DNA of 64,000 nt from positions 2,772,501 through 2,836,500 of the forward strand of contig OU744454.1 in assembly GCA_916610825.1 (NCBI GenBank), read 5' to 3'. This stretch comes from Haliclystus octoradiatus (Eukaryota > Cnidaria > Staurozoa > Stauromedusae > Haliclystidae). The first letter of the stretch is position 1. The number at the start of each line of letters is the position of its first letter. The notes under the pieces are model-generated. The model did not search any database. It had not been told where the DNA came from and worked only from the letters and a program-made list of their open reading frames with translations. Both the position numbers and the translations under genes were made by a program. Positions 42,202-63,766 of this stretch are shown here, in pieces.

Positions 42202-45200
42202 ATGAATAAAATCCTTGTATATTGGTATTCTTTGTATGTTGGATTAAGTTATTATAGTGCTATGCAGCTCATTTTTTTCCTCATCTTGCAATTTGCGGTT
42301 GCCCTGAATGCTGATTCCCCAGCAGGTAAGCCTACTTTTAGATTATTAATATTTATTGTCAATTTTATTTTTCACATCATCGTCCTCAGCATTATATATT
42401 CATGCCAACCTACATGATTTCTATATTTTCAAAATTATCATACCGGTATAATAATTACCCTTTCACATGATTACGTGCATAAAGTTTTGAATAGGCTATA
42501 GGGATAGGCCTTGGCCTAACTTCTGCATAAATAGGCCTAAACTGAACAGACCAACCTTAAAACGTGTTTCCTCTCTGATTAATTATTAGCTGAGTTGAAC
42601 TAAGCCTATGAAACTGTATTGTACTTGAGGTATATCTACAATGTAGTTTTTGATCTACAAAATGTCATTTATACCACGATTAGGCCTATAGTTATTTATT
42701 TTGAGGTAGGCCTAACTTTCAGCATTCAATTCAATCTGAAACTCCCAAGTTTCTCTATTTTCCTTCTTTAAAACTGTGAAACCTACTAAAATTTTTTTTT
42801 TCTGCTGCAATTTATCTCGTACCAGCTGCCTGTCATGTGATAGTTTAAAATGGTTATAGCAGGTATGATGACCCAGTTGCATCATAATTTATATTTAGGC
42901 TAATGTATAATTAACAGGTTAACTCCCACCCCTAGAAGAACGGTATGACACAGAAGATATTAGAAAATGTAGGCCTACAAGTTTTGTTTGCCAATTTATC
43001 ACACCTCGTATTCGGTTGGCAGATAGTAATTGTAGTGTTTCGTACGTCATAATCCATAATTAGAATTCTATTGTTTAGTTAATTAAGTTTCATGTTTAAG
43101 ACGCATCATATAAAGTTTAACGCATGCGCACAACCATTTGTAAATATTTCAGTATAAAATGATGTACATCAATATATTTTCTTTGTCAGATGTAAGTTGC
43201 GAGAGACAGACTTTTTAGATAATGTTAAAAAAAATATTCATTTACACAATTAAAAGTTAGTGTTTAATATAGTCTTAAAAGAAATCAAGTATTATATGTT
43301 GTTTATTGTTATGCTGAACTGATTTTATTCTCTTTGTGTCAAATACTCTGTCCGAAAGATTAATTGAACTAAATCGGAGAGTCCGATACATGTAGGGTTA
43401 TCAGTTTAAGATCTTGCACTTTCGTGCGGCCTTAGTGTAGTGGCTAGGGCATTGGACCATGGCCCGCAGGGTCTCAGGTTCAATCCCTGTCCGGAGCACT
43501 ATAGGTTGGCGTCAGGAAGAGCATCCGGCTATTAAACGCACACAAGCTTCAAAATACTAACAAATTAACCAACCACCCCGGTGAAAAAAAGCTGTAAGCT
43601 TACCCGGTTGTGGAAAATGATAAATCCCCCCCCCCAAAAAAAAATCGTAAAAAGTAAATCTAGGCCTACAGCTGAATCTTATTATCAGAAAAAGATTTGA
43701 ATCTCGACCTGGCTTCAATTGTTGAACTAAATCCAACCACTGACTGTGTGTGCCTAATTGTTGTTAAACTTTACGATAGTCCAATTTCTTGAATTTATTG
43801 CTGCACAATTTCTATGTGCGAATTTATGAGCTGTGATAGGTTGGCAAACAAAATATGTAGGCCTACTATCTGACAAAACAGATATTGGAACCAAACATTG
43901 TCCAGCAATTGGCGGCAGCTTGTGATTTTCTGATGCCTTCTCATTTTCTCCTTACACGTCCTGTCGTGCGGCAAATATCAATATCTCATAGGAAATTGTT
44001 CGCCAATTGCTTGTATTATAACTTGCACACATTTTTATAAAGATTTCATTTGCATGAATTTTGTATAGTATAAAATGTTTTTGAAAATCCTGATCAAATT
44101 GGAAATTTTCATTCATGATGTCAAGTTTGATCGGTTATGTTTTCAAACATAGTTTTGCTATTGTGATTCGGTGTCATAACTCCAAACCAATCAAGATTGA
44201 TTGAATCAATTTTGTTATAATGCAGCCTATTATTACGTTACAGACAGATTTCTTCTTTGTATATTCCGCCTGCGGAATTGCCAAGAGGATCATGCCGTTT
44301 GTAAACTCGTGCATTAATGAAAAGAGTCAAAATTTTTAACTTTTCTCATGAAATATGTAGGTCCAGGGTTTGACCAAAATTTGTAGTAGTCCTGCAATTC
44401 TAGATTCCGGAAGGCTAGAGCAAACTAAAAAAAAATTGTATTTTTCATGATTTCTTTGTCAAACATCAACAAAAAACTCAGGAGAAAATGTTGAAATGCC
44501 AAGATTCCAGATGTCAGACCCTGTTTATGCATAGATTAAGCTTATCACCAGTGGATGAATTATACTTAGGCCTACTTGGCCTAGGTGCTTGGTTGGTGGG
44601 AGTCATTTGCTTGGTGGTGTGCGCACTCACCTTGAGAACCCTATCCTGCCCCAACCAAGTACCAGTCATACTGATTAACAGTGGAAATAGATAATACCTT
44701 ATATAATGTTATCAAGAGGAGGGTGGGTGGGATTTTAAATTTTCTGATCCCACCATCCTTGCATCTTGTGAGTTTCTGGAGTTGCGAGGCATATTGACTG
44801 AATATTTGCGAATTGCGGATGATAGTTTGCACTTGCTTAGCTTGCAGTGGAGACAATGCGAATTATCAGGAAACACCCCTTGACGATATGATACCTGAAC
44901 CCTGCATATGCGCATACAAGCTTGTATGATCGTACGATCTCTAGATACTATTCCCCATGGGGGAGTTAACTTTAAAAGTGATCACTTACGATGTCACATA
45001 CCACAAATTAGTAGAAGGACATTGACTACAATTACTTGTCCTAGCTAATAATTAATTAACTAAATGATGTTTGATATTGTGTTCATAATTAATTGCCATA
45101 GTAACCACCTGAAAAGGTGCGTCATCTTGCGACTGGCTTGATTCAACTAGCATAAAATTAACATTTTAGGCACATGAAAACCTACTAGTTAATGGAATTA

Positions 45201-62600: not shown

Positions 62601-63766
62601 AACAGCTCATGAACTGTCTGTGAGGGTCCATGAACAGTTCAGAAGAATTGGAACCATTTAATGTTTATGAACTGTTCATGAACTCCTGAACTGTTTTTTG
62701 CAGGGTAGGAAAAATTATCACCAGTAATATAAATTAAGTTATTATATTTACAAATTAGAAAGGTAATTTGAATCATGATTCTTAAAAAGTACCGGTATTT
62801 TAAATATTGAATATTGATGTTTAATGAACAATATATAATTTATGTTAAAAATATTTTTATTTACAAATTAAGAGAAGTTGAAGAGGAATGCTAATGAATT
62901 ATCTCGGATGACAGAGCGACTGGTCTTCTTTGTTCATATCTGATTGGCTGTAGTCAGGGTCCGACAAAAGGGGGGATCCTGGGATCCTAGATCCCGGAAG
63001 GCTAGACCAAATTCAGAAGAAAATTGATGTTTTTAATGATTTTCTGGTCAAACCTCAACAAGTAAATTCAGAAGAAAAAGTTTAAATGCCCCTAGGATTC
63101 CAGAAGGCTGAACCTTTTGTCGGACCCTGGCTGTGACTCAAATCCTCTGATTATCAACTCAGCCTTTACTTTATCAAAAACATCAGAAACAACATAGGCC
63201 TACTTTGTCTAAACTTATTAGAGTAATATACCTTCTTAATTACCATTAGTTTATCCTTGTTAATATCATTACTGTTAACAAACATATTTGTCAAATCCTT
63301 TGCCCAAAAGGTGACCTTTTTCAACTGATATATTACGGATCTGGAAATGATCTACAATGGAACTAGAGTCAAGTTTCACATCGTTATTTATCTTCAGGCA
63401 ATTTAAAACAATTAACAGCAGAATTTTATACAATGGACGTTATTAAAATAGCAATAGGTCTAACATAGTCAATTACCAATCAACTATCATATGAATGGAT
63501 TTTTGTAGTCTAGTTGAGATAAGTTGCCTGATGGTCGTCGAACAGTGTGAATCTTGAAGTAGCTTGGTTCTAGCATGTTTCATTTTTGACTCATTCTATA
63601 TGCTCCGATTGTTATATGCTTCGAGTGTGGAACAATCCCACTGTATTAGACCTATTTATTATATTTGTTATGTTTTCATGATCTATTTCTAGAAGCTGAT
63701 CAATGTGGATTTGTTTTGGATTATTTTGTTGAGCCTGGAAGTAATGGCCACAAACAGAAAGTTCAG
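56654..63766 (+). CDS. Unrecognised type I membrane glycoprotein, gene 2 (first 6 exons; cut by window end)
   Basis: Tandem paralogue of gene 1. Exons: 56654-56705, 58060-58260, 60561-60634, 61287-61380, 62237-62482, 63693-63766, then GTATGC. Phases match gene 1 exactly; exons 4, 5 and 6 have the same lengths (94, 246, 74). Exon 1 encodes a short signal peptide (MMHIANVVITIILIGLT). Conserved words: SHYNAMCIHDGVAYLL, DFIVTIIQPL, GDYAGD, CYYEV, GLYTTMFDPC, VPYYV, FYTGTKTDEIV, QCGFVLDY. All eight cysteines of the shared part are kept. By eye about 37 of 82 residues of exon 5 are identical between copies. N-glycosylation sites NNT, NDT, NTT, NVS support an exported ectodomain. The remaining four exons, including the TM segment, should lie beyond 64000. 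Confidence 0.78.
58318..58396. mobile_element. Family B-like fragment
   Basis: TTCATGAACTCATGAACTTT words directly before a family D SINE; no intact ends. Confidence 0.4.
58397..58622 (+). mobile_element. Family D tRNA-derived SINE, complete
   Basis: GCGGCCTTGGTGTAATGGCT (box A), CGGGTTCAATCCCTGTCC (box B), body as at 43426, A-rich tail AAATAAAAAAAAATAAAA. Confidence 0.85.
58668..58860. mobile_element. Family F element copy (reverse)
   Basis: ATTGTGAAAACACCACCAAA and AAAACCATGAAAACATCCTG, inverse of the 20785 copy. Confidence 0.55.
59070..59945. repeat. Tandem array, period 126 bp, seven units
   Basis: The word GAGGTGAACACATGTA recurs at 59098, 59224, 59350, 59476, 59602, 59728 and 59854, exactly 126 bases apart. 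Units are almost identical (a few substitutions, e.g. GTAGGTG/GTATGTG/GTAGGGG). Each unit joins a TAATATAATA stretch, the arm of the family G hairpin element and GACAAGACTAGATA. In intron 2 of membrane-protein gene 2. Confidence 0.95.
59854..60055. mobile_element. Family G hairpin element at the end of the array
   Basis: The last unit continues into GTTACTCGGAGTTTCGCGCG, the loop TTTATCAACCGTCTGATGAA, and the inverse arm ending CCTCATCTTTGTGTCTATTC. The far arm is truncated. Confidence 0.8.
60296..60380 (-). mobile_element. tRNA-like SINE head (second family), inverted
   Basis: Minus strand reads GGTAGCTCAGCGGCAGAGTG (box A) and GGGGTTTGATTCCTAGTCGG (box B), then CACACATGTTTGTATTT as at 45545. 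Not a standard tRNA fold. Confidence 0.55.
60774..61226. mobile_element. Long family B-related region
   Basis: Many TTCATGAAC/GTTCATGAACTTT words with CATGAACTTTTTTTGCAGGT at the right end; probably several overlapping copies. Confidence 0.55.
61591..61769 (-). mobile_element. Family A MITE copy
   Basis: TACAGTCAAACCTGTTATAA to CAGGTTTAACTGTA. Confidence 0.82.
61800..62130. mobile_element. Family H dispersed repeat, copy 2
   Basis: TTATAAGAGTTGGGCCACTC, CTCTCGGCTCCCGTTGGACA, CAGTCACATGAGTTTTTAGA, AGGCTCGCGAGATTTGAACA; extended version of 9920-10100. Confidence 0.6.
62572..62705. mobile_element. Family B palindromic element copy
   Basis: CCCCTGCAAAAACAGTCCGG at left, CTGAACTGTTTTTTGCAGGG at right. 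Confidence 0.8.
62955..63129. mobile_element. Family C element copy, intact ends
   Basis: CAGGGTCCGACAAAAGGGGG at left, CTTTTGTCGGACCCTG at right. Flanks GCTGTAGT and GCTGTGAC are similar 8-mers, possibly a worn target duplication. Confidence 0.8.

Follow-up and report, generated by a model that had tools for sequence, protein, structure and literature searches.

What do the tandem genes in the last third of this stretch of chromosome 9 encode, and where does one gene end and the next begin? The window, that is, the whole stretch of 64,000 nucleotides (nt) that was analysed, comes from the stalked jellyfish Haliclystus octoradiatus, a staurozoan, and corresponds to C11:2772501-2836500; positions below are counted from its first letter, and the counting continues past its end. 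An initial annotation of the window had proposed a head-to-tail gene pair that encodes cysteine-rich type I membrane proteins of no recognisable family. Here we propose, with a probability of about 0.5, that the locus holds a small family of tandem genes for type I adhesion or recognition glycoproteins, in which gene A carries one ectodomain unit and gene B carries two.

The ten exons of gene A (42202-55387), when joined, read in frame for 495 amino acids (aa) to a stop codon. Without the 91-nt exon at 51958-52048 the frame is broken after exon 6; with the exon included it stays open. The encoded protein has a signal peptide, an ectodomain of approximately 400 aa with 14 cysteines, one predicted membrane span in exon 10 (mean hydropathy 3.84 over 19 residues) and a short tail. 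The in-frame ATG at 42262 gives the best signal peptide, and the ATG at 42202 fails the same hydropathy rule. A hydrophobic signal exon was also found in gene B, in keeping with the signal peptide annotated in each gene. The order of signal peptide, cysteine-rich ectodomain, span and short tail very probably makes this a type I surface glycoprotein, the class that had been assigned at the outset and that the sequence supports. Its signal peptide would be cleaved and its single ectodomain probably knit by disulphides; its short tail showed no recognisable enzyme domain and may serve in sorting or anchoring.

Searching the 39 kb downstream of the window by tblastn revealed the remaining exons of the second gene's first ectodomain (unit 2) and a third ectodomain unit, which starts 14 kb beyond the window end. 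The second gene thus continues past 63766, where it had been thought to end. Pairwise identity between the three units is 46.4, 49.0 and 52.5%, the intron phases are the same in all of them, and within exons 2-9 each of the 13 cysteines is conserved in every unit (13 of 13), and no other column contains one. The eight shared cysteines reported initially (gene A residues 51, 61, 75, 159, 176, 189, 208 and 248) are all matched in the second gene, and exons 4-6, which have GT-AG splice borders, agree between the two genes in length (94, 246 and 74 nt) and in phase. The ratios of non-synonymous to synonymous substitution rates (dN/dS) for the three unit pairs are 0.228, 0.224 and 0.251 by the Nei–Gojobori method (NG86), values that are low and also rough, because dS (1.6-2.1, with synonymous differences at 66-70% of sites) is near saturation. 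As read from the sequence, the exons of these tandem genes are real. We did not use exon-only conservation as an argument, because among the tblastx matches listed for the three loci there is similarity also outside the exons, which comes from repeats shared by the introns. The "many N-glycosylation sites" of the initial annotation show some excess over shuffled sequences, although a modest one: the three ectodomains hold 7, 10 and 5 sequons, numbers reached or exceeded in 128, 15 and 650 of 5000 shuffles, and three sequon columns are common to all units. An internal triple cysteine module suggested by eye is not supported, as hhalign gave 0.2-1.2% probability between the presumed modules.

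The earlier failure to place the proteins in a family was borne out within the reach of the Pfam, PDB and Foldseek searches. Pfam searches at a lax limit returned no family over the cut-off for gene A (11 weak matches, all in the C-terminal membrane half, residues 414-478), no matches for exons 1-6 of unit 2 and, for the three ectodomains, one match (E 0.13), whose 12.7 bits fall short of the cut-off of 25. Among the weak matches, CD34/podocalyxin (PF06365) resembles gene A residues 432-475 (E 0.022), but its 15.2 bits lie below the cut-off of 26.3, and the match falls in the membrane region and leaves the ectodomain unmatched. Searches of PDB by sequence gave two chance-level matches (E 0.074 and 1.3), and a three-row profile gave none. 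Because proteins of this architecture are usually used in this way, we lean towards the view that these proteins bind a partner at the surface of the cell, in adhesion or recognition. They would make a stable contact with a protein or glycan there, to which a second ectodomain unit would add reach or valency.

A strong competitor, to which we give somewhat less than even odds, is that the ectodomain belongs to a known superfamily of extracellular beta-sandwich domains, such as the immunoglobulin superfamily (IgSF), but has diverged beyond the reach of sequence profiles; the protein would then be an Ig-like adhesion receptor of the ordinary sort. For exon 8 only, an AlphaFold model built from the three-unit alignment is all strand (9 strands), though with a mean predicted local distance difference test (pLDDT) score of 50.5 and a predicted template modelling (pTM) score of 0.46, and the passages of PMC11067881 on the Alr proteins place these in the IgSF through structure predictions, at low overall identity. 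Against this, no Ig family exceeded the Pfam cut-off, a match to Ig_PDGFR_d4 (E 7.1) covers the membrane region, and a Foldseek search with this poor exon-8 model gave 388 matches with E <= 10, of which the best had E 0.54 and thus 0 reached E <= 0.001. Domains that take up seven exons or more and hold 13-14 cysteines are, moreover, unlike Ig domains, which are one-exon domains.

The second part of the question is whether units 2 and 3 belong together. For unit 2 there is a signal exon but no membrane exon that convinces. For unit 3 there is a membrane exon similar to that of gene A (span hydropathy 3.38), and our scan found no signal exon. The scans for signal and membrane exons used simple hydropathy and splice-site rules and recovered, as controls, both known signal exons and both membrane exons. 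In the gap between the units (68653-78225), which contains no runs of N, the scan found one hydrophobic ATG start, at 68748, lacking a fitting donor. After exon 9 of unit 2, the membrane-exon scan found one hydrophobic open stretch, behind the AG at 69497 at the edge of a satellite, and this candidate begins with Leu at a conserved Cys position. The end phase of unit 2 exon 9 equals the start phase of unit 3 exon 2, and the joined frame reads through 873 aa before a stop codon. The codon of the 14th cysteine straddles the exon 9 border; gene A, unit 3 and the fused model of gene B all have Cys there, and in unit 2 it requires a next exon that starts with GT or GC.

Given the unfruitful scans between the units, the phase match and the open joined frame, we prefer the interpretation that gene B is probably one gene in which the ectodomain is carried twice. 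Exon 9 of unit 2 would be spliced over a 9.6-kb satellite-bearing intron to exon 2 of unit 3, yielding a two-unit receptor, and a cassette of exons 2-9, with phase 1 at both ends, could be duplicated without a frame break. The annotated gene pair would then stand as tandem paralogues but probably not as equals, the second gene most likely having two ectodomain units. The DDYLK ending described earlier is present in gene A; unit 3, as read, ends differently. The predicted proteins share with duplicated-cassette type I adhesion receptors, as a general kind, the signal peptide, repeated disulphide-rich ectodomain, single span and symmetric phase-1 cassettes, and differ from them in that no named domain is recognised here.

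Several observations weigh against a single doubled gene B and the function proposed for its product. The fused gene is a model read from genomic sequence alone, agreement of phase by itself has a chance of approximately 1/3, and the scans between the units depend on the simple rules described above; their ATG-start rule, together with the 837 bp that precede the satellite, leaves room for an unusual terminal exon. If no additional splice is assumed, unit 3 has a tail that does not resemble that of gene A; after 87922 there is a weak donor, GTTTGT, from which splicing to another exon is conceivable, although none was found. The function is drawn from the architecture, and no domain or fold match indicates a ligand.

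It is less likely, at roughly one chance in four, that the locus holds three separate genes: gene A, a second gene whose unit-2 product is secreted or anchored in some other way, and a third gene for unit 3 with an unrecognised first exon. When secreted, the unit-2 form could serve the membrane forms as a decoy or ligand in solution. Unit 2 does own a signal exon and, when its exon 9 donor is read through, stops soon afterwards; however, the scan before unit 3 gave no signal exon with a fitting donor, and unit 2 exon 9 and unit 3 exon 2 match in phase and together yield the conserved cysteine.

The presumed intron between units 2 and 3 contains an 82-bp satellite (69546-78214) of approximately 8.7 kb, with copies approximately 97% alike. 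Among the 52 genome matches listed for it, all but one belong to this array (51), the other being a weak match (76%) on C1. The array has 1 AG in 8726 bp on the plus strand and 257 on the other strand; we gave this scarcity no weight as a sign of tolerance within an intron, because 18% of shuffled units were also free of AG. The window contains other repeats. A long near-pure ATT/TTA microsatellite (54766-55192) reaches almost to the exon 10 acceptor of gene A, stopping just a few bases short of it. Inspection by eye showed short palindromic repeats of the TTCATGAAC type, in numerous copies on both strands of the introns, at 46100-63970. Intron 2 of gene B has tandem copies of a unit of approximately 125 bp (~59080-59940, by eye). 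An interspersed repeat of approximately 200 bp, present at 43431-43632 and ~58398-58600, has a tRNA-like box, GGTTCAATCCC, which we take to be the mark of a short interspersed element (SINE); a genome-wide first look gave 2151 candidates, and among the best 40 scored the top copies elsewhere are 97% alike.

The extent of the family was assessed by searching the whole assembly (261,861,806 bases in 33 contigs, ~262 Mb; C11 has 16,713,648 bases). The assembly passages of the genome note (PMC9975415) give 262 Mb, 33 scaffolds, a chromosome 9 of 16.71 Mb and a mitochondrial genome of 18.3 kb, and a plot legend there gives 261,898,343 bp, 36,537 above the assembly searched here. Four queries, gene A exon 5, gene A, unit 2 and unit 3, gave 3, 18, 19 and 18 matches, and all save one fall in this locus. 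The exception, C1:19284463 (unit 2 query, E 0.349, 30% identity over part of the protein), was not recovered by the other queries and was judged to be chance after its frames were read by eye. No further convincing unit appeared among the best candidates, which alone were scored; an exon-by-exon search can miss distant relatives, and three is thus the number of units found rather than proof that others are absent. Of the larger array once suspected beyond 64000, the rest of the second gene and one more unit were found. No relatives were found in viral contigs (0 from 41 pattern matches) or prokaryotic genomes (0 from 20), results that say little on taxon restriction.

We regard this as an uncharacterised but ordinary-looking receptor locus, whose neat feature is that a phase-1 cassette has probably been doubled, with a private satellite lying between the copies. 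For Staurozoa, genomes are few and so are receptors that have been studied. A compact locus in which an unplaced ectodomain occurs once in one gene and probably twice in the next offers a small defined target for work on the function of a possibly lineage-specific surface protein, and a place to ask how a phase-1 exon cassette builds a longer receptor. A far bolder reading, which we consider improbable, is that a new extracellular fold founded a medusozoan receptor family with one- and two-unit members that acts in self or gamete recognition, with the satellite marking a recent or unstable fusion, maybe polymorphic between animals. A new fold, or polymorphism at the locus, would be relevant to recognition in cnidarians other than Hydrozoa.

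We also think it very unlikely that this is a multi-allelic locus of self/non-self recognition (allorecognition) or gamete recognition. The passages of PMC11067881 on the Hydractinia Alr complex describe IgSF proteins with highly polymorphic ectodomains, encoded at no fewer than 41 loci. Like Alr1 and Alr2 as presented there, the proteins studied here are cnidarian, are encoded by clustered paralogous genes, find no easy sequence match and are predicted to be single-pass, with one hydrophobic span in gene A exon 10 and one in unit 3; here, however, 3 units were found and no Ig family over the Pfam cut-off, and the analysis covered one haplotype. The case for such a locus is that a cnidarian has type I receptors in tandem whose ectodomains vary, and nothing else, and three units with purifying-type ratios of 0.22-0.25 do not seem to form a diversifying repertoire. 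That the locus is non-working, its frames due to chance or its copies decaying, is scarcely credible: it is known here from genomic sequence alone, but frame, splice sites and cysteines are kept in three copies at ~50% identity, with dN/dS far below 1.

Table 1. Positions of the exons of gene A and gene B, counted from the first letter of the window.
Feature	Position	Strand	Phase	Length (nt)	Remarks
Gene A exon 1	42202..42325	+	0 (start)		signal peptide
Gene A exon 2	45297..45491	+	1		SHYNAMCIHD motif; paralogous exons in units 2 and 3
Gene A exon 3	46553..46623	+	1
Gene A exon 4	47575..47668	+	0	94
Gene A exon 5	48593..48838	+	1	246	GLYTT-FDPC-VPY and YTG-KTD motifs
Gene A exon 6	49479..49552	+	1	74
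Gene A exon 7	51958..52048	+	0	91	frame-keeping; paralogous exons in units 2 and 3
Gene A exon 8	52466..52794	+	1	329	NCTTEIIG and FIFDAH motifs
Gene A exon 9	54667..54742	+	0		juxtamembrane; last base opens codon of final ectodomain Cys
Gene A exon 10	55200..55387	+	1		membrane span; tail ending EDEDDYLK; stop
Gene B exon 1	56654..56705	+	0		signal peptide
Gene B unit 2 exon 2	58060..58260	+	1
Gene B unit 2 exon 3	60561..60634	+	1
Gene B unit 2 exon 4	61287..61380	+	0	94
Gene B unit 2 exon 5	62237..62482	+	1	246
Gene B unit 2 exon 6	63693..63766	+	1	74	last exon inside the window
Unit 2, further exons	64853-64940, 65887-66221, 68577-68652				past the window
Unit 3	78226-88002				past the window

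Elsewhere in the window, a long single-exon open reading frame (ORF) at 12117-13517 (+) matches the nucleoside transporter family of Pfam (PF01733), and another at 15461-16948 (-) matches a protein kinase (PF00069) and has two MIT matches (PF04212). Two ORF pairs on opposite strands, 20821-22342 (+) and 37527-39110 (-), are apparent paralogues of one multi-span protein; they share the words IGWRPFG and RIQENEG/RFQENEG, and no Pfam match was found.

The mitochondrial contig of the assembly (C33, 18,316 bases) carries COX1 and other usual genes, in an order that is medusozoan. In its code TGA stands for Trp, and AGA/AGG occur at what we read as conserved Arg positions in the COX1 alignment. ARAGORN with default settings found two tRNAs, tRNA(UCA) and tRNA-Met; its mitochondrial mode added two Leu candidates and one Phe candidate, which were taken as noise. 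The code, the default tRNA set and the gene order led us to set aside a tunicate origin. An inverted repeat holds one short frame at both 16221-16418 (+) and 17347-17544 (-), and the minus strand has long extra frames at 3-914 and 17698-18315, which we presume to encode a DNA polymerase.

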